Source: Cloacibacillus sp. (GTDB lineage Bacteria; Synergistota; Synergistia; Synergistales; Synergistaceae). Taken from it: a stretch of 64,000 bases of DNA. Below are positions 12,728 through 24,344 of the stretch, one piece after another. A program made the translations under genes and the position numbers. The stretch spans positions 1 through 64,000 of the forward strand of contig JAVVPF010000003.1 in NCBI GenBank assembly GCA_036655895.1. The letters are read 5' to 3'. Positions within the stretch are counted from its first letter, which is position 1, and the number at the start of each line of letters is the position of its first letter. Under the pieces are notes generated by a model, which made no database searches, was not told the DNA's origin, and was given only the letters and a program-made list of their open reading frames with translations.

Positions 12728-12979
12728 ATGATATTTCATGCAGAGGCCGTAATCACACCGCGCGAGGGAGTTCTGGACACTCAGGGCAAGGCCGTTGAAA
12801 AGACGCTTGCACATCTTGGATATAAGGGACTGAACGAAGTGCGCGTGGGGCGCATCGTTACGCTCCAGCTTGAGGCCGAAAGCGCCGACGCGGCCACGGA
12901 GGCCGTGAAGAATATGTGCCAGGACCTTCTGGCGAACGACCTGATTGAGACTTATAAAATTTCGGTGCGGGAAGCATAG
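12728..12979 (+). CDS. purS: phosphoribosylformylglycinamidine synthase subunit PurS
   Basis: An 83-residue PurS, the small scaffold subunit that holds PurQ and PurL together so that ammonia passes to FGAM formation. It starts MIFHAEAVITPREGVLDTQG and has the family LGYKGLNEVRVGRIVTLQLE block. AAGGAGG lies 10 nt before the ATG. First gene of the operon, 2 bp before purQ. Length is typical. Confidence 0.93.
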   Translation: MIFHAEAVITPREGVLDTQGKAVEKTLAHLGYKGLNEVRVGRIVTLQLEAESADAATEAVKNMCQDLLANDLIETYKISVREA

Positions 12980-12981
12980 CG

Positions 12982-13695
12982 ATGAGAACAGCCGTCGTCG
13001 TTTTTCCAGGAAGCAACTGCGACCGCGACGTACAGCGGGCGGTCGCGGAGACGCTGAAAACACCTGTCGATATGGTATGGCATGAGGAGACGGACTTCGC
13101 CTCCGAGCCGGACCTCGTTATCCTCCCCGGCGGATTCTCGTACGGGGATTATCTGCGTTCCGGCGCGATGGCGGCGCGTTCGCCCATCATAGCAGCGGTG
13201 CGCCGCCACGCGGAGGCCGGAAAGCTGCTGCTCGGCATCTGCAACGGCTTTCAGGTGCTTACGGAGACAAAGATGCTGCCGGGCGCTTTGCTGGTGAACA
13301 CTACTACGACCTTCCTCTGCAAAAAATGCTACGTGAGGGTCGAGCAGACGGAAAACCATTTCACCTCCGGCATGAAGAAGGGCGAGATAGCCCAGTACCC
13401 CATCGCGCACCACGAGGGGCTTTATTTCCTGCCGAAGGCGGAGCTTGATGCGCTTGAGGAGGCGGGGCAGGTGGTCTTCCGCTACGCTGACCCGAACACC
13501 GGCGAAGCGGGCGCGGAGTACGCGCCAAACGGCGCTTTGAACGGCATCGCCGGCATCTGTAATAAGGAAGGAAACATTCTGGGGCTTATGCCGCACCCTG
13601 AACGCTCGACGGTATCGCATCTGAACGGCGGAACGGACGGCGCGGCATTCTGGCTTTCTATAGCAGAAGATTTCGCAAAGAGAGGTAGACGTTAA
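12982..13695 (+). CDS. purQ: phosphoribosylformylglycinamidine synthase subunit PurQ (glutaminase)
   Basis: A 237-residue class I glutamine amidotransferase that supplies ammonia from glutamine for FGAR amination. The nucleophile is C87 in GICNGFQVL, the oxyanion region is ILPGGFSYGDYLRSG, and the catalytic His/Glu sit in LMPHPERS near the C-terminus. Its TAA overlaps the purL ATG by one base (TAATG), indicating coupling and subunit stoichiometry. Confidence 0.93.
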   Translation: MRTAVVVFPGSNCDRDVQRAVAETLKTPVDMVWHEETDFASEPDLVILPGGFSYGDYLRSGAMAARSPIIAAVRRHAEAGKLLLGICNGFQVLTETKMLPGALLVNTTTTFLCKKCYVRVEQTENHFTSGMKKGEIAQYPIAHHEGLYFLPKAELDALEEAGQVVFRYADPNTGEAGAEYAPNGALNGIAGICNKEGNILGLMPHPERSTVSHLNGGTDGAAFWLSIAEDFAKRGRR

Positions 13696-15845
13696 TGGAT
13701 TTCCGCAAGGTTGGACTCTCGGAATCAGAATACAAGAGGATCATAGAACTGCTCGGACGCGAGCCGAACGCTCTCGAACTGGAGCTTATCGGCGTAATGT
13801 GGTCCGAGCATTGCAGTTATAAATCTACGCGCCCGCTTTTGCGCACTTTCCCGTCAAAGGGGAAGTATGTGCTGCAAGGACAGGGCGAGAACGCCGGCGT
13901 GGTGGATATGGGTGAGGGCTGGGGCTTCGCCTTTAAGGTGGAAAGCCACAACCACCCCTCCGCGGTGGCTCCGTTTCAGGGCGCCGCGACCGGCGTGGGC
14001 GGCATCATCCGCGACATTATAGCGATGGGCGCGCGTCCTACCGTCTCTATGGACGGCCTTTTCTTCGGCGACGCGTCGCTTCGCAAGACAAAGAATCTGG
14101 CAAAGGGCATCGTTGAGGGCATCGGCGCTTACGGCAACGCGGTGGGCGTGCCCATCCTCGGCGGAAAAACTTTTTATTCTCCCTGCTACAACGACAATCC
14201 GCTTGTGAACGCGTTCAGCGCGGGCTTCGTGCGGCTAGACAAGATGGCGAGTTCGCAGACGGCGAAGCCGGGCGATTTCGCGGTGCTGCTTGGCTCAAAG
14301 ACGGGCCGCGACGGAATCGCGGGCGCCTCTTTCGCCTCGCGCGAGCTTGACGAGGATTCAAAGGCCAGCAAGCCTCAGATACAGATAGGCGACCCGTTTG
14401 AAGAAAAGCTGCTTATTGAGTGCTGCATCGACCTGCTTGAAAAGAACCTCATCGCCTCTATGCAGGACATGGGAGCGGCGGGCATTCTTTCATCGTCTAG
14501 CGAGATTGCGCACAAGAGCGGCTGCGGCATCGACATAGAGGTAGAAAAGATACCGCTACGCGAAGCTGACATGCTCCCGTGGGAAATTTTCCTTTCGGAG
14601 TCGCAGGAAAGAATGCTGCTCGTCGTCGAAGAGCCTCAGCTGGAGGCGGTATTCGCGCTCGCAAAACACTACGGCCTTGACTGCGCCGTGGTCGGCACTA
14701 TGACGGACAGCAGACGTTACCGCGTCTACAAAAACGGAAATCTCGAAGCGGAGCTGCCTACCTCTATCCTTGGCGACACGCCGGAGAAGATATGGCCCGC
14801 GGCCGAGCCAAAGGATATGCCCGCCCGTCAGGCGATAGACCCCGCCTCTTTAAAATGCACGGACGCGGCGGCAGACCTGCTTGAGATGCTTTCCTGCCCC
14901 AACGGACATAAAAAAGACGCTATATGGGAGCAGTATGATTCCATGGTGCAGCTCCACACGATAGCCGGCCCCGGCGAACCCGCGGCGATAACGGAGGTGC
15001 CGGAAACGCGCCGCGCCTGCGTGCTTACGATGGAGGCCGAGCCGTACAAGTGCTGGACGGACCCGTACACTGGAGCGGCGGAGGCTATGGCGCTTTCGCT
15101 TCGCGGCCTGTGGCTCACGGGCGCAGAGACGCTGGGCATGACGAACTGCCTGAATTTCGCCTCTCCCGAAGACCCTGAGAAGTTCTACGAATTAAAGGAA
15201 TGTCTGCGCGGACTTGCGGAGACCTGCGGCGCTCTTGACTGCCCCGTAGTCTCCGGCAACGTCAGCCTTTACAACGAGACCGCGACCGACCGCATCTTCC
15301 CCACTCCGCTCGTTGTGACGGCTGGGCTTGTGGTGGACCGCGACAAAGTTGTCCGCGCCGGCCGCGCACAACCGGGCGACGCCGTATATCTCGTGGGCAA
15401 AGCGGAAGGGTCGCTCGGCGGCTCGCGCTATCAGCAGTACAAAGACGGCAGGCCGCTTGGCGTCACCGTCGCCACAGACTTTGAGGCTGAAAAGGCTTTC
15501 CGAAAGGCGGCGCTTGACGTGGCGCACCGCCAGCTTGCGCGTTCTGGACGCGTAGTGGCGGGCGGCGGCCTCGTTACCGCTCTTGCAAACGAAGCGGTAG
15601 CGTCCGATACAGGCATGGAGATAACGCTTCCCGTTGGAACGCGCGTGGAAAAAACGCTTTTCTCAGAGGGCGGAGCGCGCGCGGTCTATTCCGTGGCGCC
15701 CGAGCGCGCGGCGGAGTTTGAAGCGGCGTGGGCCGGTTTTCCGTGCGTGAAGGCGGGCACTGCCGGCGGCGATAAATTTACGTGGCGCGAGGTTCTCTCT
15801 CTGCCGCTTGAAGAGCTTAAGAAAGCATTTACGGAGGAAAAATAA
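13695..15845 (+). CDS. purL: phosphoribosylformylglycinamidine synthase subunit PurL (small type)
   Basis: A 716-residue small PurL, the ATP-dependent synthetase that converts FGAR to FGAM using ammonia from PurQ. It begins MDFRKVGLSESEYKRIIELL and carries WSEHCSYKSTRPLL, VESHNHPSAVAPFQGAATGVGG (phosphate and Mg binding), QDMGAAGI and PVVSGNVSLYNET. Length matches the PurSQL-type enzyme rather than the fused E. coli form. Confidence 0.95.
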   Translation: MDFRKVGLSESEYKRIIELLGREPNALELELIGVMWSEHCSYKSTRPLLRTFPSKGKYVLQGQGENAGVVDMGEGWGFAFKVESHNHPSAVAPFQGAATGVGGIIRDIIAMGARPTVSMDGLFFGDASLRKTKNLAKGIVEGIGAYGNAVGVPILGGKTFYSPCYNDNPLVNAFSAGFVRLDKMASSQTAKPGDFAVLLGSKTGRDGIAGASFASRELDEDSKASKPQIQIGDPFEEKLLIECCIDLLEKNLIASMQDMGAAGILSSSSEIAHKSGCGIDIEVEKIPLREADMLPWEIFLSESQERMLLVVEEPQLEAVFALAKHYGLDCAVVGTMTDSRRYRVYKNGNLEAELPTSILGDTPEKIWPAAEPKDMPARQAIDPASLKCTDAAADLLEMLSCPNGHKKDAIWEQYDSMVQLHTIAGPGEPAAITEVPETRRACVLTMEAEPYKCWTDPYTGAAEAMALSLRGLWLTGAETLGMTNCLNFASPEDPEKFYELKECLRGLAETCGALDCPVVSGNVSLYNETATDRIFPTPLVVTAGLVVDRDKVVRAGRAQPGDAVYLVGKAEGSLGGSRYQQYKDGRPLGVTVATDFEAEKAFRKAALDVAHRQLARSGRVVAGGGLVTALANEAVASDTGMEITLPVGTRVEKTLFSEGGARAVYSVAPERAAEFEAAWAGFPCVKAGTAGGDKFTWREVLSLPLEELKKAFTEEK

Positions 15846-15850
15846 ATAAT

Positions 15851-17224
15851 ATGTGCGGAATTTTCGGAGCGTACAGCCAAAGCGGCAATGCCGTATTGGA
15901 AGACATATATCTCGGACTTTGCGCTCTGCAGCACAGAGGCCAGCTATCGGCGGGCGTCGCGTGGACGGATAAAGGCTCCGTACACATCAAAAAGGGCCTT
16001 GGACTTGTTCACGAGGCGCTCTCCCAGAGCGAGCTGGCAAAGATAGAGGCGCACACTGCGATAGGACATGTGCGCTACGCGACGACCGGAGGCACGAGGC
16101 CCGAGAACTGCCAGCCGCTTGGCGCAAATTACGCGCAGGGGCCGATAGCGATCGCGCATAACGGAAATCTTACGAACGCGGCGGCTCTTTCCAGCTATCT
16201 TGCAAACCGCGGCGCTATTTTCCAGACTTCGTGCGACACGGAGACTATCATTCAGCTGATGGCCCATCAGCCGGCGACGGTGCAGCTTGAAGCGCTGGAG
16301 ACGGCCCTTGGCAAGTTGCAGGGAGCCTACAGCCTCGCCGTTCTGCTTGAAGACTGCCTTATCGCGGCGCGCGACCCCTACGGGTTTCGTCCGCTCGTCC
16401 TTGGACGGCGCGGAGACGATTATTTCGTCTCCTCCGAGTCGTGCGCGCTGGATATGATAGGCGCGGAGCTTGTGCGCGACGTGGAGCCGGGCGAGGTGCT
16501 GGTGATCGACAGGCGCGGCATCATCTCGCGCAAGATGAAAAAACAGGCGCAGCGTCACCGCAAATGCGCCTTTGAATATGTCTATTTCGCGCGGCCGGAC
16601 AGCGTCATCGACGGCAGGTCTGTATATAAGGCAAGAAAGAATCTGGGCGCCTGTCTCGGCCATTGCTTGGACTGCCAAAAAGACGCGGTCGTCACGGGGA
16701 TGCCGGACAGCGGCACGCTCGCGGCGCTGGGCCTCGCGGAGGAAGCCGGCATGGAGTTTGAGGCCGGCGTCGTGCGCAACAGATATGTCGGGCGCACCTT
16801 CATTCAGCCGACGCAGCGCGTGCGCGACGCGGGCGTGAAGATAAAGCTGAACCCTCAGCCCGGCATTTTCGAGGGCAAAGAGGCGGTGCTGGTGGACGAT
16901 TCCCTTGTTCGCGGAACGACGGCCGGCCGCATCGTTTCGATGATACGCGACAGCGGAGCGAGCAAGGTGCACATGAAGATAGCCTCTCCGCCCGTGCGTT
17001 TTCCCTGTTATTACGGGATAGACACGCCGAGCTCGGAGGAGCTTGTCGCGGCTCAGATGGAGATACCGGAGCTCTGCCGCAAGATAGACGCGGACTCGCT
17101 GGAATATATAAGCTGCGAGGAGCTTTGCCGCGCTATAGGACTTCCGCGCGACGAACTGTGTACAGCATGTTTTGACGGCGATTATGTGGACGAAAATCAG
17201 GACGGCGATCTGCTCGAAGTATAG
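15851..17224 (+). CDS. purF: amidophosphoribosyltransferase (catalytically complete copy)
   Basis: A 457-residue Ntn-type PurF, catalysing the first committed step: PRPP plus glutamine to 5-phosphoribosylamine. The glutaminase site is intact: C2 nucleophile (MCGIFGAY), R75 (GHVRYATTGG), N104-G105 oxyanion hole (IAHNGNLTN) and D129 (QTSCDTE). The PRTase loop is AVLVDDSLVRGTTAG and MPDSGTLAALG. Four cysteines at the positions that hold the Bacillus-type 4Fe-4S cluster are present (KCAFEYVY, FPCYYGID, LCTACF). The only oddity is Leu32 in HRGQLSAG where an acidic residue is usual. GGAGG precedes the ATG; purL ends 5 bp upstream. Confidence 0.93.
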   Translation: MCGIFGAYSQSGNAVLEDIYLGLCALQHRGQLSAGVAWTDKGSVHIKKGLGLVHEALSQSELAKIEAHTAIGHVRYATTGGTRPENCQPLGANYAQGPIAIAHNGNLTNAAALSSYLANRGAIFQTSCDTETIIQLMAHQPATVQLEALETALGKLQGAYSLAVLLEDCLIAARDPYGFRPLVLGRRGDDYFVSSESCALDMIGAELVRDVEPGEVLVIDRRGIISRKMKKQAQRHRKCAFEYVYFARPDSVIDGRSVYKARKNLGACLGHCLDCQKDAVVTGMPDSGTLAALGLAEEAGMEFEAGVVRNRYVGRTFIQPTQRVRDAGVKIKLNPQPGIFEGKEAVLVDDSLVRGTTAGRIVSMIRDSGASKVHMKIASPPVRFPCYYGIDTPSSEELVAAQMEIPELCRKIDADSLEYISCEELCRAIGLPRDELCTACFDGDYVDENQDGDLLEV

Positions 17225-17304
17225 GCTCGCGTAATAAAATATTTTATTGATGCTGTGTATAAGGTAAAAAAATATAAAAATCTAAATTGCGGAGGCGCAT
17301 TGAA

Positions 17305-18018
17305 ATGGAACTGACAAAAAAGGATTTCATCTACGAAGGCAAGGCAAAGAGGCTCTACACGACGGAGGACGCAAATTACGTTATCGTCGAATACAAGGAC
17401 AGCTTCACCGCTTTTAACGGCCTCAAAAAGGCGACTATGAGCGGCAAGGGCGTCCTCAACAACAACATTTCGTCAAAGCTTTTCACGATGCTCGCTGAAA
17501 ACGGCGTTGAATCGCATTTTGTAAAAAGGCTCAACGAAACAGACCAGCTTGTGAAGCGCGTCAACATCGTGCCGCTTGAGGTGATCGTGCGCAATATCAC
17601 GACCGGCTCGCTCTGCAAGCGTCTGGGCGTCGCTGAGGGCATGACGCTGCCGCGCCCGCTCTTTGAGATGTGCTACAAGGACGACGAGCTTGGCGATCCG
17701 TTCATCATCGAAGACCACGCCCTGCTCTTCGGCTGGGCGACAAAGGAAGAGCTGGACAAGATCAAAGACATCTCCCTTAAGGTGAACGCCATCCTCAAGG
17801 ATTACTTTGAGAAGCTGGGCGTCGTGCTTGTGGACTTCAAGCTTGAGTTCGGCAAGGATATGCAGGGCAATCTTATACTCGCCGACGAAATCTCCCCCGA
17901 CACCTGCCGTTTCTGGGACAAGTCTACAGGCGACCATCTTGACAAGGACCGCTTCCGCAAGGACCTCGGCGATGTGCTCGGCGCATACGAAGAGATCTGG
18001 AAGAGAATTTCAGCTTAG
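17305..18018 (+). CDS. purC: phosphoribosylaminoimidazole-succinocarboxamide synthase
   Basis: A 237-residue SAICAR synthetase joining aspartate to CAIR with ATP. Motifs are FIYEGKAKRLY, YKDSFTAFNGLKK, FVKRLNETDQLVKRVNIVPLEVIVRN and LADEISPDTCRFWD. The frame opens at TTG 17287, but ATG 17305 lies 9 nt after GGAGG and gives the standard N-terminus. The 80-bp gap from purF (17225-17304) is A/T-rich and contains a perfect 16-bp palindrome AATAAAATATTTTATT at 17233-17248; no convincing internal promoter was found. Confidence 0.93.
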   Translation: MELTKKDFIYEGKAKRLYTTEDANYVIVEYKDSFTAFNGLKKATMSGKGVLNNNISSKLFTMLAENGVESHFVKRLNETDQLVKRVNIVPLEVIVRNITTGSLCKRLGVAEGMTLPRPLFEMCYKDDELGDPFIIEDHALLFGWATKEELDKIKDISLKVNAILKDYFEKLGVVLVDFKLEFGKDMQGNLILADEISPDTCRFWDKSTGDHLDKDRFRKDLGDVLGAYEEIWKRISA

Positions 18019-18024
18019 CCTGAT

Positions 18025-19392
18025 ATGAGCGGAATTTTCGGCGCGTACAGCGCAAAGGGAAAGCCCGTACTCGAGGAGGTCTATCTCGGCCTCTACGCCT
18101 TGCAGCACCGCGGGCAGGAATCCGCCGGCATCGCGTGGACGGAAGACGGACGCGTCGCCTCGGCGCACGGGGTGGGCCTCCTTCACAACGCGATAGACCA
18201 GCAGAAGCTTGCGGACGAAAAGGCCTCCTGCGCGATAGGGCACGTCCGCTGTGTGCCGCTTGAAAGCTCCCAGCTCCAGAACGTGCTGCCTATATGCGCC
18301 AACTACGCGCGCGGCCCTGTCGCCATCGCGCACGACGGCCTTGTGACGAACCTTGCGGAGCTTACGGAGCAGCTTGAACAGCGCGGCGCTATTTTCCAGT
18401 CTTCGACGAACTCGGAGGCGGTGCTGCACCTTATGGCGCAGCGTTCGCACATGCAGCCGGTGGACGCGCTCGTGGACTCGCTCAAAAGGCTCGAAGGCTC
18501 TTATGCTATAGCAGTGCTGCTTGAAGACGCCTTCGTCGCGGCGCGCGACCCGTACGGCTTCAAGCCTCTGGTGCTCGGTGAGCGCGACGGCGTCTATTAC
18601 GCCGCCTCGGAATCCTGCGCGCTCGACATAGTAGGCGCGAAGCTCTTGCGCGACGTGGAGCCGGGCGAGATCGTCGTAATCAACTCAAAGGGGCTGACAA
18701 GCCTCCGCGTGAGGCAGGAAAAATGCGGGCGCTGTATGCACTGCTCGTTTGAGTACGTCTACACCGCGCGCCCCGACAGCATCATCGACGGACGTTCCGT
18801 CTACGAAACGAGAAAAGAGATGGGACGCAGGCTTGCTCTCAAGTCCCCGTGCGGCGACGCCGACCTTGTGGCGGGAATGCCGGACAGCGGAACTATATCA
18901 GCGATAGGCTACGCGCACGCGGCGCGCACGCCCTTTGAAATGGGCGTCGTCCGCAACCGCTACGTCGGACGCACCTTCATCCAGCCAACGCAGAAGGTGC
19001 GCGAGCTGGGCGTGAAAATAAAATTGAACCCGATAGAAGAGGTCTTCAACGGCAAGAAGGCGGTCATCGTCGACGACTCGATCGTGCGCGGCACTACGGC
19101 GGAACGCGTCGTGGCGATGATAAGAAACTGCGGCGCGGCGGAGGTCCACCTTCGCATCGCCTCCCCGCCCGTTCTGCACCCCTGCCGCTACGGCATCGAC
19201 ACGCGAAAGCAGGAGACTTTAGCCGCCGTCCGCATGACGCTTGATGAACTGTGCCGGAAGGTAGGCGCGGACTCTCTGGACTATCTTACAGAGGAGGACC
19301 TCACTGAATCCATAGGCCTCCCCGCCGACAAACTGTGTACCGCCTGCTTTTCAGGCAAATACCTCGAAGACGACAAACAGGAGAAATGCTAA
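18025..19392 (+). CDS. PurF paralogue lacking the glutaminase active site
   Basis: A 455-residue protein colinear with the purF product encoded upstream, with no gap over the first 140 residues. The glutaminase residues are lost: nucleophile C2 is Ser (MSGIFGAY), YATTG after R75 is CVPLE, N104 of the oxyanion hole is Asp (IAHDGLV) and D129 is Asn (STNSE). The PRTase half is intact: MPDSGTISAIG, VVRNRYVGRTFIQPTQK and AVIVDDSIVRGTTAE. Iron-sulfur cysteines are also kept (MHCSFEYVY, HPCRYGID, LCTACF), with extra cysteines in KCGRCMHC. It could be an ammonia-dependent PRTase, a regulatory partner in mixed PurF oligomers, or an enzyme for another amine. No Shine-Dalgarno is visible, so translation probably depends on purC, whose stop is 6 bp upstream. 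Confidence 0.85.
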   Translation: MSGIFGAYSAKGKPVLEEVYLGLYALQHRGQESAGIAWTEDGRVASAHGVGLLHNAIDQQKLADEKASCAIGHVRCVPLESSQLQNVLPICANYARGPVAIAHDGLVTNLAELTEQLEQRGAIFQSSTNSEAVLHLMAQRSHMQPVDALVDSLKRLEGSYAIAVLLEDAFVAARDPYGFKPLVLGERDGVYYAASESCALDIVGAKLLRDVEPGEIVVINSKGLTSLRVRQEKCGRCMHCSFEYVYTARPDSIIDGRSVYETRKEMGRRLALKSPCGDADLVAGMPDSGTISAIGYAHAARTPFEMGVVRNRYVGRTFIQPTQKVRELGVKIKLNPIEEVFNGKKAVIVDDSIVRGTTAERVVAMIRNCGAAEVHLRIASPPVLHPCRYGIDTRKQETLAAVRMTLDELCRKVGADSLDYLTEEDLTESIGLPADKLCTACFSGKYLEDDKQEKC

Positions 19393-20406
19393 ATGAGCAA
19401 GCTCAGCTATGAGAAATCTGGAGTAAGCATATCGGGCGGAGACGCCTGGGTGGAGACTATCAAAAAACTTCTCGCAAAGCATCCTAAAGATCCAAACTGC
19501 GTGGGCGGCGTGGGCGGCTTCGCGGGGCTTTACAGCATAGGCGGAGGCCAGTGCCTCGCCGCGTGCTGCGACGGCGTCGGCACAAAACTGGAGCTGGCGA
19601 AGGCGGCGGGGCTTTACCGCGGCCTCGGACAGGACCTTGTAGCCATGAACGTGAACGACCTCGTGACGGTCGGCGCGCGCCCGCTCTTTTTCCTCGATTA
19701 CGCCGCGTGCGGCAAGCTGGACGAATCGATGCTGGCTCAGGTCGTTGAGGGCGTCATCGACGCCTGCGACGAAAGCCTCTGCGCACTGCTTGGCGGCGAG
19801 ACGGCCGAGATGCCCGGCGTTTACGGCGCCGACGGCTTTGACCTGGCCGGTTTCTCAGTAGGCATAGTCGACTGCGATAAGATAATCGACGGAAGTTCCA
19901 TTCAGGAGGGCGACCTCATCGTGGGCCTTCCCAGCTCCGGCGTACACAGCAACGGATTCAGCCTCGTGCGCAGCGCTCTGGGCGCGGAGGGGCTGAACGT
20001 GCCTCTTGATGCGATCCCGGAAGGCTGGAACGAGAGCGTAGGCGAGGCGGCAATGCGCCCGACGAAGCTCTACGTCAAGGCAGCGCTTGCGGCCATAAAG
20101 ACCGGCGTTGTGCACGGCATGGCGCACATCACCGGCGGCGGCATGTACGGCAACGTCATCCGCGTCATCCCGAAGCACCTTGATATTCTTGTAGATTTCA
20201 AATCATGGGAGCGCCCGAAGATTTTCGACCTCATCCAGAGCGCTGGCATTGACGAAGAAGAGATGCGCAAGGTATTCAACCTCGGCATCGGCTACGTCTT
20301 CATAGTAGCGCCCAAAGAGCTTGCAGCGCTGGAATCGGCGCTTTGCGAGCTTGGCGAAAAGCCCGTCGTAATAGGCGAGGTCATAAAATGTACCAACCGC
20401 GCATAG
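19393..20406 (+). CDS. purM: phosphoribosylformylglycinamidine cyclo-ligase
   Basis: A 337-residue AIR synthetase closing the imidazole ring of FGAM with ATP. Characteristic stretches are LSYEKSGVSISGGDAWVETI, CCDGVGTKLELA, MNVNDLVTVGARPLFFLDY, GGETAEMPGVY, DLIVGLPSSGVHSNGFSLVR and MAHITGGGMYGNVIRVIP. The ATG directly follows the upstream stop codon and has AGGAG before it. Its last 19 bases overlap the next gene. Confidence 0.94.
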   Translation: MSKLSYEKSGVSISGGDAWVETIKKLLAKHPKDPNCVGGVGGFAGLYSIGGGQCLAACCDGVGTKLELAKAAGLYRGLGQDLVAMNVNDLVTVGARPLFFLDYAACGKLDESMLAQVVEGVIDACDESLCALLGGETAEMPGVYGADGFDLAGFSVGIVDCDKIIDGSSIQEGDLIVGLPSSGVHSNGFSLVRSALGAEGLNVPLDAIPEGWNESVGEAAMRPTKLYVKAALAAIKTGVVHGMAHITGGGMYGNVIRVIPKHLDILVDFKSWERPKIFDLIQSAGIDEEEMRKVFNLGIGYVFIVAPKELAALESALCELGEKPVVIGEVIKCTNRA

Positions 20407-22526
20407 CGATACTGATCTCAGGCACCGGCACGAACATGGAGGAGCTTTTAAGGGCCTCCATCACAAAAGAGCTGCCGGCGCAGGTATCGTTCGTGGGAAG
20501 CGACAATCTTGAAGCAAAAGGGCTGATGAAGGCGGCCGCTCTTGGCGCCTCCACGCGCGTCTTCTTCTATAAGCGCGACGGGCGGAGCTGCGCGGAAGAG
20601 GCTCTTGCCGCCGCAATCGAAGAGACGCATACGGACTGGATAGTGCTCGCCGGCTTCATGCGCATACTTTCACCCGAATTTGTACGGCGTTTCGCGCACC
20701 GCATCATAAACATCCACCCGGCGCTGCTGCCCGCCTTTCCCGGCGCGCACGGCATACGCGACGCATGGGAGGCCGGCGTGGCTGAAACCGGAGTGACTGT
20801 CCACATAGTGGACGAAGAAGTTGACCATGGGCCGATTTTGGCGCAGCAGAGCGTGCGGCGCGAAGCAGACGACACGATAGAGACGCTTGAGGCAAAGATA
20901 CACGCCGTGGAGCATAAAATATATAAACTCGCGCTGAAAGAGTTCCTTGAAAATCATCCGGTAGAGATAGATCAATGGGAGGCTGACAAAGTGAAAAAGA
21001 TGGAGACGAGAAAGGCGCTTATATCCGTATGGGATAAGACTGGCGTACTCGAACTTGCGCGCGGGCTTGCCGCGCACGGATATGAGATTGTATCCAGCTC
21101 CGGCACCGCGAAACACCTTGAAGAGGGCGGCGTCAAGGTAACGGAAGTAGTTGACATGACGGGACTGCCCGCCATTTTGGGAGGCCGCGTAAAGACGCTG
21201 CATCCGACCATAATGGGCGGAATACTGGCAAGACGCGGCGTAGCTCAGGACGACGAGGACCGCGAGAAGTTCAACATTCCGCTCATCGACGTCGTAGTCT
21301 GCACGCTCTACCCCTTTGAAGAGACCGCGAAAAGCGGCGCCGACCTCGACCATCTCATTGAAAAAATAGACATAGGCGGAGTGTCGCTCATCCGCGCCGG
21401 AGCAAAGAACTACTACAACGTAGCCGTTATAACGGACATAGACGACTACGGCCGCGTGCTCGACGAGCTTGAAAAAAAGCAGGAATTTACGCTTGAGTTC
21501 AAGCAGGAGCTTGCGCTCAAAGCCTTCCGCAAAACGGCCTCCTACGACGCCGTAATCTATCGCGGCCTCTGCAAAGAGGTTGGCGCGGAGGACGAAGTTG
21601 AAGCCTACAAGGTGCTGCCGCTTGAAATGAAGCAGAAGCTCCGCTACGGCGAAAACCCCCACCAGAAGGCGGCCCTTTTTATGCCCCCGCTTGAAGAAAG
21701 CCCGTTTGAACAGCTCTCCGGCAAGGAACTTTCCTACAACAATCTGCTCGACCTCGACACGCTGCTGCGCGGCTGCTCCGTTTTCCAGGACGCCTGCGCC
21801 TGCACGATAGTAAAACATACGACGCCCTGCGGCACGGCAATGGGAGCTTCGCCCATCGAAGCCTTCAAAAAGGCGCTCGCCTGCGACCCTGTCTCCGCGT
21901 TCGGCGGCATCATCGGTATGACGCGCAAGGTGGACCTCGAAACTGCAAAAACGATAACGGAGACCTTCTTTGAGATCCTGGCCGCGCCTGAATTTGAAGA
22001 GGGCGTAGTCGATTACCTGAAAGAAAAGAAGCCTAACCTCCGCGTGCTGAAGCTAAAGGCCGGATACGCGCCGAAACTCCAGCTCATCGGCAACCGCTGC
22101 GGCTATCTCGCGCAGGAGGACAAACTTCCCGCGCTGCCGACGCAGCAGGACGGCAAATGGCACGGCACACCGCGCCCCGAGCTCTGGGACGACATCATCT
22201 TCGCATGGAAGACGGCCGCCATCACAAAGAGCAACGCAATAGTGCTGGTCAAAGACGGAGCCGCGGTTGGCATTGGCGGCGGCTTCACAAACCGCGTAGA
22301 CGCCGCGGAATACGCGATGAAGCAGGCGGGAGATAAGGCCCGCGGTTCGGTGCTCGCCTCCGACGCCTTCTTCCCCTTCGCGGACTCGGTAGAGCTTGCG
22401 GCAAAGGCCGGAGTCACAGCCGTCATAGAACCGGGCGGCTCCATCCGCGACGACGAGGTGATACAGAAGGCCGAAGAACTTGGCCTGAGCCTCTTTATCG
22501 GCGGCACGCGCACCTTCCGCCACTAG
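20388..22526 (+). CDS. fused PurN-PurH: GAR formyltransferase plus AICAR formyltransferase/IMP cyclohydrolase
   Basis: A 712-residue fusion of two enzymes that normally are separate. Residues 1 to about 195 are PurN: ISGTGTNMEELL, MRILSPEFV, NIHPALLPAFPGAHG (N108, H110) and D146 in VDEEVDHGPI. Residues from about 202 to 712 are PurH: ALISVWDKTGVLELARGL, SSGTAKHLEEGG, RYGENPHQKAA, IVKHTTPCG with the AICAR transformylase Lys-His pair, and GGSIRDDEVI. A 20-residue linker joins them without a stop. GGGAGG at 20977-20982 followed by in-frame GTG 20991 and ATG 21000 could still start a separate PurH. Start ATG 20388 is chosen over the longer frame because it gives the standard PurN N-terminus and has AGGCGAGG upstream. 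Confidence 0.88.
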   Translation: MYQPRIAILISGTGTNMEELLRASITKELPAQVSFVGSDNLEAKGLMKAAALGASTRVFFYKRDGRSCAEEALAAAIEETHTDWIVLAGFMRILSPEFVRRFAHRIINIHPALLPAFPGAHGIRDAWEAGVAETGVTVHIVDEEVDHGPILAQQSVRREADDTIETLEAKIHAVEHKIYKLALKEFLENHPVEIDQWEADKVKKMETRKALISVWDKTGVLELARGLAAHGYEIVSSSGTAKHLEEGGVKVTEVVDMTGLPAILGGRVKTLHPTIMGGILARRGVAQDDEDREKFNIPLIDVVVCTLYPFEETAKSGADLDHLIEKIDIGGVSLIRAGAKNYYNVAVITDIDDYGRVLDELEKKQEFTLEFKQELALKAFRKTASYDAVIYRGLCKEVGAEDEVEAYKVLPLEMKQKLRYGENPHQKAALFMPPLEESPFEQLSGKELSYNNLLDLDTLLRGCSVFQDACACTIVKHTTPCGTAMGASPIEAFKKALACDPVSAFGGIIGMTRKVDLETAKTITETFFEILAAPEFEEGVVDYLKEKKPNLRVLKLKAGYAPKLQLIGNRCGYLAQEDKLPALPTQQDGKWHGTPRPELWDDIIFAWKTAAITKSNAIVLVKDGAAVGIGGGFTNRVDAAEYAMKQAGDKARGSVLASDAFFPFADSVELAAKAGVTAVIEPGGSIRDDEVIQKAEELGLSLFIGGTRTFRH

Positions 22527-22535
22527 GAGACTATA

Positions 22536-23822
22536 ATGAAAGTAATGGTACTTGGGGGCGGCGGCCGCGAGCACGCGGTCGTCCACGCCCTTTCAAAGTC
22601 AAAGATAACCTCCGAACTGCACTGCTGCCCCGGCAACCCCGGCATAGCGAAGCTTGCGCAGTGCCATGAGGGCGACATCTGCCGCCCAGAAGCGATGACT
22701 GCGCTTTGCGCGTCGCTTGGCATAGAGCTTGTCTTTGTCGGCCCGGAAGCGCCGCTTGTGGCCGGCACGGCCGACGCCCTGCGCGAGGCGGGCATTCCCG
22801 TCATGGGCCCCGGCGCGTCGGGCGCGAGGCTTGAAGGCAGCAAAGCCTTCTCAAAGAGCTTCATGAGAAAACACGGCATCCCGACGTCGGACTTCGACCT
22901 CTGCACAAACATCGCGGAGTGCGAGACGGCGCTGAAAAAACGCAGCGCTCCGTTCGTGGTGAAGGCTGACGGCCTCGCCGCGGGAAAGGGCGCCTTCCTG
23001 CCCGAAAGCTATGAAGAGGCCGTCGCCGTCTGCCGAATGATGCTTGATGAGCAGAAGCTCGGAACTGCCGGCAACCTCATAGTGGTGGAAGACTACGTTC
23101 CCGGCATGGAAATGACGGTGCTTGCCTTAACAGACGGCAAAACGGTTAGGATACTGCCGTCAAGCCAGGACCACAAGCGCGCGAACGACGGCGACAAGGG
23201 AAACAACACAGGCGGCATGGGCGCTTACTCGCCGGTGCCGTGGGTGGACGACGCCTTCATGAAAAAGGTGACAGACGAAGTACTGACGCCCACCGTAAAC
23301 GGATTGAACAGCGACGGCATACCATTTCGCGGCGTCATCTACGCGGGCATAATGATAGAACCAAGCGGAGCGCTTTCCGTGCTTGAATACAACGTGCGCT
23401 TGGGCGACCCTGAAACTCAGGTGGTGCTTCCCGCCTTCGGAGGAGACTTCGGAGAGGCGGTGCTCGCCTGCGCAAGCGGCGAGCTTGAAAAGGCCGAGTG
23501 GCCGGGCGCGGCGCGCGTTGCGCTGGGCGTAGTCATGGCCTCCGGCGGCTACCCCGATACATTTGAAAAGGGCTACGTCATAACCGGCGCGGACGAAGCG
23601 GACGAAAAAGATGAAAATACTTTCGTCTATCACGCGGGCACGAAGCTCAACGAGAAGGGCGAGCTTGTGACGAACGGAGGCCGCGTACTTACGGTAGTCG
23701 GCATCGCGGACGACCTCGCCGCCGCGAAAAAGCTGGCCTACGCGCGCGCCGAACGGATAAAATTCAAAGACGAACATCACAGAAACGACATCGGCGACAA
23801 ATCGCTGAAAATGGAGGCGTAA
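22536..23822 (+). CDS. purD: phosphoribosylamine-glycine ligase
   Basis: A 428-residue ATP-grasp GAR synthetase, coupling glycine to phosphoribosylamine. It has the N-terminal MKVMVLGGGGREHAVVHAL, MGPGASGARLEGSKAFSK, FVVKADGLAAGKGAF (ATP-grasp lysine) and QDHKRANDGDKGNNTGGMGAY, YNVRLGDPETQVVLP. It directly uses the unstable product of PurF, which fits its place in the operon. It starts 9 bp after the fused purNH gene. Confidence 0.95.
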   Translation: MKVMVLGGGGREHAVVHALSKSKITSELHCCPGNPGIAKLAQCHEGDICRPEAMTALCASLGIELVFVGPEAPLVAGTADALREAGIPVMGPGASGARLEGSKAFSKSFMRKHGIPTSDFDLCTNIAECETALKKRSAPFVVKADGLAAGKGAFLPESYEEAVAVCRMMLDEQKLGTAGNLIVVEDYVPGMEMTVLALTDGKTVRILPSSQDHKRANDGDKGNNTGGMGAYSPVPWVDDAFMKKVTDEVLTPTVNGLNSDGIPFRGVIYAGIMIEPSGALSVLEYNVRLGDPETQVVLPAFGGDFGEAVLACASGELEKAEWPGAARVALGVVMASGGYPDTFEKGYVITGADEADEKDENTFVYHAGTKLNEKGELVTNGGRVLTVVGIADDLAAAKKLAYARAERIKFKDEHHRNDIGDKSLKMEA

Positions 23823-23825
23823 ACT

Positions 23826-24344
23826 ATGGCATCACCAAAGATCGGCATCATCATGGGCTCCGCGTCGGACATCCCCGTCGTTGAAAAGGGTACCCCGGTG
23901 CTGGATACGCTTGAAATAGAATACGAAGTGGCTATCGCCTCGGCGCACCGCACCCCCTCGGACGTGGAAAACTACGCGAAGGGCGCGCGCGCGCGCGGGA
24001 TAAAGGCGCTCATAGCGGTGGCCGGCCTTTCGGCCGCGCTTCCCGGCGTAGTGGCGGCCGCCACCACGCTTCCCGTCATAGGCGTGCCAGTCAAGGGCGG
24101 CGCCATGGACGGCATGGACGCTCTGCTTTCAATAGCGCAGATGCCTCCCGGAGTGCCCGCAGCCTCCGTCGGCCTGAACGGAGCGAAAAACGCCTGCCTG
24201 ATGGCGGCGCGCATTGTAGCGGCCTGCGACGACGAGCTGACGCAAAAGCTTGAAGCCTACGCGCAAAAAGAGGCGCGCAAGGTGCGCGAAAGCCGCGAAA
24301 AGCTGGACAAACTTCCCGCAGCACCCGAAGAAGCCTACAAATAA
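23826..24344 (+). CDS. purE: PurE-family carboxyaminoimidazole enzyme of uncertain class
   Basis: A 172-residue PurE with IIMGSASDIPVV and ASAHRTPSD (H41), which acts on AIR or N5-CAIR to give CAIR. The loop that in class I enzymes reads GGAAHLPG is GLSAALPG here, so the histidine is replaced by A71, and no purK is in the operon. SAHRTP favours class I (N5-CAIR mutase, which needs PurK); the missing His and absent purK favour a CO2-using enzyme like class II. The assignment is therefore left open. Last gene of the operon, ending before a strong terminator. Confidence 0.85.
   Translation: MASPKIGIIMGSASDIPVVEKGTPVLDTLEIEYEVAIASAHRTPSDVENYAKGARARGIKALIAVAGLSAALPGVVAAATTLPVIGVPVKGGAMDGMDALLSIAQMPPGVPAASVGLNGAKNACLMAARIVAACDDELTQKLEAYAQKEARKVRESREKLDKLPAAPEEAYK

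Follow-up and report, generated by a model that had tools for sequence, protein, structure and literature searches.

A second PurF without a glutaminase nucleophile in the purine operon of Synergistaceae, and the case for free ammonia as its substrate

Textbook purine synthesis begins with glutamine. The purine operon of a Cloacibacillus genome encodes two copies of PurF, and the second has lost the catalytic cysteine of its glutaminase half. What would such a protein do in this operon? The locus lies in a window of 64,000 nucleotides (the whole stretch of DNA that was analysed; contig JAVVPF010000003.1), in which the operon purS-purQ-purL-purF1-purC-purF2-purM-purNH-purD-purE occupies positions 12,728-24,344. 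All features of this operon are on the forward strand.

The operon opens with purS (12,728-12,979; TIGR00302 match at 12,734-12,973), purQ (12,982-13,695; TIGR01737 above cut-off, catalytic GICNGFQ intact) and purL (13,695-15,845; identified from its ORF and synteny). The partner copy purF1 (15,851-17,224) encodes 457 amino acids, and its glutaminase site is complete (C2, R75, T78, N104, D129). purC (17,308-18,018) is directly 5' of purF2 (18,025-19,392; 455 amino acids), its stop lying 6 nt before the purF2 ATG, and the purM ATG (19,393-20,406) immediately follows the purF2 stop. purN and purH form a single fused open frame (20,343-22,526), with separate matches in some relatives, and purD (22,536-23,822) and purE (23,826-24,344) complete the operon. 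No clear Shine-Dalgarno was found in the region 5' of purF2. A hidden upstream start that would restore a cysteine was considered and excluded, since the purF2 frame opens (18,019) just two codons before the ATG.

The glutaminase site and the PRTase half of PurF2

PurF2 is 56% identical to PurF1 over about 450 amino acids. By its TIGR01134 score (446.8 bits against a cut-off of 350), its PRTase motifs (PDSGT, NRYVGRTFI, VDDSIVRGTT) and its Fe-S cysteines, it is a PurF. It fails the criteria for a glutamine-dependent PurF (EC 2.4.2.14), having no Cys nucleophile and both the Thr and the Asn of the pocket replaced. It should be noted, as a warning for annotation, that those PurF2 proteins that were run against the curated model score like normal glutamine PurFs.

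The N-terminal glutaminase half (about residues 1-232) reads as inactivated, and the PRTase half as intact. At the Met-Ser-Gly start (18,025-18,033), catalytic Cys2 has become Ser. The former glutamine loop, RYATTGG in PurF1, is now R75-CVPLE-S81 (18,247-18,267). HDGL (residues 103-106; 18,331-18,342) stands in place of HNGN, changing glutamine-site Asn104 to Asp, and TNS (residues 128-130; 18,406-18,414) stands in place of CDT, changing Asp129 to Asn. Three of these changes are invariant across the PurF2 clade: Ser at position 2, Pro in place of Thr78 and Asp in place of Asn104. Position 129 is Asn in 9/16 copies and Asp in the other 7/16. Y76C is seen only in the window and in genus g5; Tyr is kept in most PurF2 relatives. 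Pocket residues Arg75 and Gly105 are retained in the window; among PurF2 copies Gly105 is kept, and Arg75 is kept in most.

In the PRTase half, the flexible loop RNRYVGRTFIQ (residues 310-320; 18,952-18,984), the PRPP-binding motif VDDSIVRGTT (residues 349-358; 19,069-19,098) and the motifs RNRYVGRTFIQP and PDSGT are all intact, and the four B. subtilis-type Fe-S cysteines (CSFEY, HPC, CTAC) are present. All PurF2 share P394R, a change at a PRTase position that is otherwise conserved. Counting only positions where 30 single-copy PurFs of Synergistota reach at least 95% conservation, PurF2 is changed at 14/85 in the glutaminase half versus 3/80 in the PRTase half (Fisher p = 0.009); the altered positions include C2, T78, G80, N104, N106 and D129. 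With the nucleophile, the threonine and the oxyanion-side asparagine gone, the glutaminase half is catalytically dead, a conclusion drawn from sequence alone. An AlphaFold model with a mean pLDDT of 80, dropping in the flexible loop of the PRTase (309-333), fits a folded two-domain protein but leaves the mechanism undecided.

The initial annotation had placed the two copies in register over their first ~140 residues, had listed C2S, YATTG to CVPLE, N104D and D129N in the second, had reported PRTase loops and four Fe-S cysteines as remaining, and had put the gene between purC and purM without its own Shine-Dalgarno. All of these claims held. Its statement that every key glutaminase residue was lost held only in part, given the retained R75 and Gly105 and the variable position 129.

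Conservation, selection and descent

A search of 188 genomes of the phylum found PurF2 in 22, belonging to 10 genera and every one within the window's family (Synergistaceae). All 22 orthologues start Met-Ser-Gly and have open frames, one copy being truncated by a contig end. Wherever the locus is whole, the gene order is purL-purF1-purC-purF2-purM, except in one genome (G004) that lacks purF1. Pairwise dN/dS between near relatives, taken over the whole gene, is 0.03-0.08 for PurF2 and 0.03-0.09 for both copies together, with similar values in the glutaminase and PRTase halves of both copies. Open and conserved orthologues, changes specific to one half and low dN/dS together show, at the level of sequence, that PurF2 is being kept as a protein and that what it has lost is specifically the hydrolysis of glutamine. 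Its glutaminase half is conserved as strongly as that of PurF1, which points to some role beyond scaffolding. The initial annotation had held that PurF2 is not simply decaying, which these data bear out. It had also asked whether the pair is conserved across Synergistota under purifying selection, which is the case within one family, and had named frame-breaking changes in relatives as grounds for refutation; none were found among the 22 PurF2 genes.

In a phylogenetic tree, the PurF2 sequences group as one clade (100/100) and the partner PurF1 proteins as another (100/100), with the single PurF of one relative (G017) as the sister of PurF2 (95/84). We considered whether the two copies arose by a direct duplication in the pair lineage and set this aside: the AU test mildly disfavours a clade uniting PurF1 with PurF2 (p = 0.034). 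The duplication therefore probably predates the pair lineage, or one copy was transferred. The choice between these remains unresolved.

A separate observation concerns position 32, right after HRGQ, which is Leu in 16/16 aligned paired PurF1s and Glu in 30/30 single-copy PurFs. This derived E32L change may hint at co-adaptation, but its meaning is not interpretable.

Relatives without a glutaminase-competent PurF and the free-ammonia reading

Several relatives lack a PurF with a competent glutaminase. In G004 (96% complete), purS-Q-L-C-F2-M-N-H-D-E lie on one contig and purF1 is absent between purL and purC. The AT-rich gap there (~470 bp) holds no purF1 remnant by blastx against all PurFs (best E 4.3), and no PurF besides PurF2 was detected anywhere in the genome. 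G017 (65% complete) has one PurF only, with Cys2 changed to Gly together with N104D, in a purC-purL-purF-purM-purN-purH operon. This operon (L042, 1-6,265) contains purL with neither purS nor purQ adjoining; neither gene was found elsewhere in G017, where gaps could hide both. In G167, PurF1 is also C2S and carries R75K and Y76H, such that neither copy has a nucleophile. All three are draft genomes of many contigs each. If these organisms make purines, they must form phosphoribosylamine without a canonical PurF glutaminase, an inference from sequence alone. Purine uptake cannot be excluded. In two further genomes of one genus (G006 and G024), the only PurF is a distant Cys-less PurF-like protein beginning MGGFFG, encoded inside the purine operon. 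We did not accept the PurF1 proteins of G023 and G003 as dead; their loops look degenerate (RHVTEGE, with T78 kept, and RYDSSAN, with Ser at 78), but C2, R75, N104 and D129 are kept.

We consider it likely (probability roughly 0.7) that PurF2 functions as a PRPP amidotransferase with free ammonia, not glutamine, as its substrate. Catalysis with ammonia is inferred, as there are no activity data. In this reading, the dead Ntn glutaminase half would be retained as a folded, selected structural half, and the PRTase half would convert PRPP and ammonia to phosphoribosylamine, which we infer from its intact motifs, purifying selection and the stand-alone relatives. Most genomes would run PurF2 alongside a glutamine-using PurF1 from the same operon, and the two copies may cover different nitrogen states through substrate supply, not transcription. 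Each phosphoribosylamine built from ammonia would spare the ATP otherwise spent making glutamine, and the glutamine route would have been lost entirely in some lineages. Since Synergistota are amino-acid fermenters (PMC12366334), ammonia is plausibly plentiful, although this too is inference.

The strongest support for the free-ammonia reading is natural gene loss, namely PurF2 alone in G004, together with G017 and G167. In addition, replacing Cys1 of E. coli PurF by Ala or Ser removes the use of glutamine but leaves that of ammonia (Mei and Zalkin 1989, as cited in PMC3261824). Several points count against it. Wild-type PurF uses ammonia poorly at neutral pH; PurF2 would therefore need a better Km for ammonia, and no change conferring one was identified. 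Furthermore, most genomes hold both copies, which is compatible with a heteromer too. The strong conservation of the glutaminase half, the draft state of G004, G017 and G167 and the possibility of purine uptake also weigh against it. The initial annotation had left three roles possible for PurF2. A free-ammonia PRTase is clearly favoured among them on the evidence of G004, G017, G167 and the other glutaminase losses described below, its activity being inferred; a regulatory subunit of a mixed tetramer is still possible in genomes with both copies, and nothing points to a PRTase using another amine.

Loss of glutaminase residues is not confined to PurF. Within genus g5, PurQ has Ser (G004) or Ala (G023) in place of its catalytic Cys, and GuaA has Gly in both genomes. 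The catalytic Cys of PyrG is Ser in G004 and Gly in G017. (The genus g5 changes are at L034 and L044 for purQ, L235/L234 for guaA and L229 for pyrG.) GuaA and/or PyrG are intact in about 30 other genomes of the family. Other glutaminase losses occur in 4/5 genomes that are fully glutaminase-deficient for PurF (G004, G017, G006 and G024, the last two with the other PurF-like family; G167 is the exception) versus 1/32 (Fisher p = 0.0004). This table was built post hoc and the genomes are not independent (G006 and G024 share a genus), so we regard the result as an indication from about three lineages and not as a proper probability.

A missing glutamine synthetase was rejected as the driver, as a match is present in nearly every genome of the family, G004 and G023 included. 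The large subunit of carbamoyl-phosphate synthetase was not found in G004, G023, G017 or G167 (weak matches only in the last two), and therefore offers no test of an ammonia form. Changes were also seen in other proteins. The CTP synthase PyrG at L301 (G001) has lost its class I glutaminase triad, with Cys to Gly and His to Leu, and PyrG at L302/L303 (G006, G024) has the triad His changed to Gln (QFQPE). GlmS of G023 (L256) and G004 (L254) keeps its Cys and shows RG to RT/RK and W to C/Y in the glutaminase half, which is perhaps beginning to degenerate.

The loss of PurQ, GuaA and PyrG catalytic residues in several lineages suggests that free ammonia replaced glutamine more widely. A bolder reading, which could as easily prove wrong as right, makes PurF2 the first visible step of a Synergistaceae-wide switch from glutamine to free ammonia in nucleotide synthesis. 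We are equally undecided on its second part, that the lineages of genus g5, G017, g2 and g7 repeatedly lost the glutaminase sites of PurF, PurQ, GuaA and PyrG while the synthase halves persisted. If true, the parallel losses would demonstrate that anaerobes can draw their nucleotide nitrogen from free ammonia in place of glutamine.

Alternative explanations and known systems

The best-surviving alternative is that PurF2 has no independent role and is a non-hydrolysing subunit of a mixed PurF1/PurF2 tetramer, where it tunes allostery or takes ammonia released by PurF1 subunits. Several observations favour it: in every pair genome whose locus is whole, purF1 and purF2 share one operon and keep their order, their 56% identity points to compatible interfaces, E32L (16/16 paired PurF1s, 0/30 single-copy PurFs) hints at co-adaptation, and crenarchaea likewise retain PurF pairs (PMC3261824). 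However, PurF2 occurs without PurF1 in G004, and in G017 the dead sister form is the only one. The conserved PRTase catalytic loops of PurF2 would be unneeded by a purely regulatory subunit, and in known PurF structures the ammonia channel lies within one chain. We therefore regard this explanation as unlikely overall, while a mixed tetramer remains possible, and is not excluded, in genomes holding both copies.

That PurF2 is a PRTase whose acceptor is a new amine, feeding a side pathway, is very unlikely. The emptied glutamine pocket could accept another amine, and P394R would fit a changed PRTase half. However, purF2 is always within the purine operon, its PRTase residues are otherwise PurF-like, and in G004 PurF2 must provide phosphoribosylamine if the pathway functions at all. 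Even less likely is that Ser2 acts as an Ntn nucleophile that still hydrolyses glutamine or another amide. Some Ntn hydrolases do use Ser, Ser2 is invariant, and R75 is kept in most copies. Against this, replacement extends to the Thr, the oxyanion-side Asn and, in many copies, the Asp, the sister PurF of G017 has Gly at position 2, and E. coli PurF with Ser has no detectable glutamine activity (PMC3261824). Finally, although the changes cluster in one active site, a decaying duplicate or pseudogene is rejected and all but excluded by the open frames in 22 genomes of 10 genera, the low dN/dS, the kept Fe-S and PRTase residues and the retention of PurF2 where PurF1 is lost.

The free-ammonia reading can be set against known systems. 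PurF2 resembles canonical PurF (B. subtilis 1GPH/1AO0, E. coli 1ECC; TIGR01134) in full-length homology and PRTase motifs, and B. subtilis PurF in its four Fe-S cysteines. It differs from canonical PurF in having no glutaminase nucleophile, in T78P and N104D and in having no propeptide. Its nucleophile change is that of the E. coli laboratory mutants in which Ser or Ala replaces Cys1 (Mei and Zalkin 1989, as cited in PMC3261824), but unlike a single engineered change the remodelling of the PurF2 pocket is natural, far wider and conserved. A parallel in function is animal carbamoyl-phosphate synthetase I, which is ammonia-dependent and keeps an inactivated glutaminase domain; it is an unrelated class I amidotransferase with a different reaction.

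The MGGFFG PurF-like family of Clostridia also lacks Cys2, as well as the NG pocket. Unlike PurF2, it has ~30% identity, an altered PRTase loop (KYTPSWLRSF) and a score of 181 bits against the cut-off of 350. Members occur at L120, L179-L184, L053 and L054, with full-length matches at L204-L209; no other PurF was found in G006, G024 and G158-G161, whereas the protein often accompanies a canonical PurF, as in several Clostridia.

The closest precedent is crenarchaeal PurF' (Brown et al. 2011, PMC3261824), a second PurF without the N-terminal Cys, which is Ala or Val in many. The same paper describes a second PurF with Ser in this position in Methanocorpusculum labreanum (Mlab_0150). Its authors considered, without testing it, that PurF' might be a PRPP amidotransferase dependent on ammonia. 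The literature searched contained no mention of PurF2 in Synergistota. Like PurF', PurF2 is a second PurF lacking the N-terminal Cys and clustered with purine genes. Unlike PurF', it is bacterial and nests among Synergistaceae PurFs, and we lean towards a separate origin for this reason, although the tree contained no archaeal sequences. A further difference is that some Synergistaceae lineages have lost the glutaminase-competent copy, with losses reaching PurQ, GuaA and PyrG. What is new relative to PurF' is the existence of bacterial lineages in which the dead-glutaminase form alone remains. If the free-ammonia reading is true, PurF2, which lacks a glutaminase and stands by itself in some genomes, would represent a natural PurF dependent on ammonia, and the stand-alone protein would make the 2011 question on archaeal PurF' directly testable.
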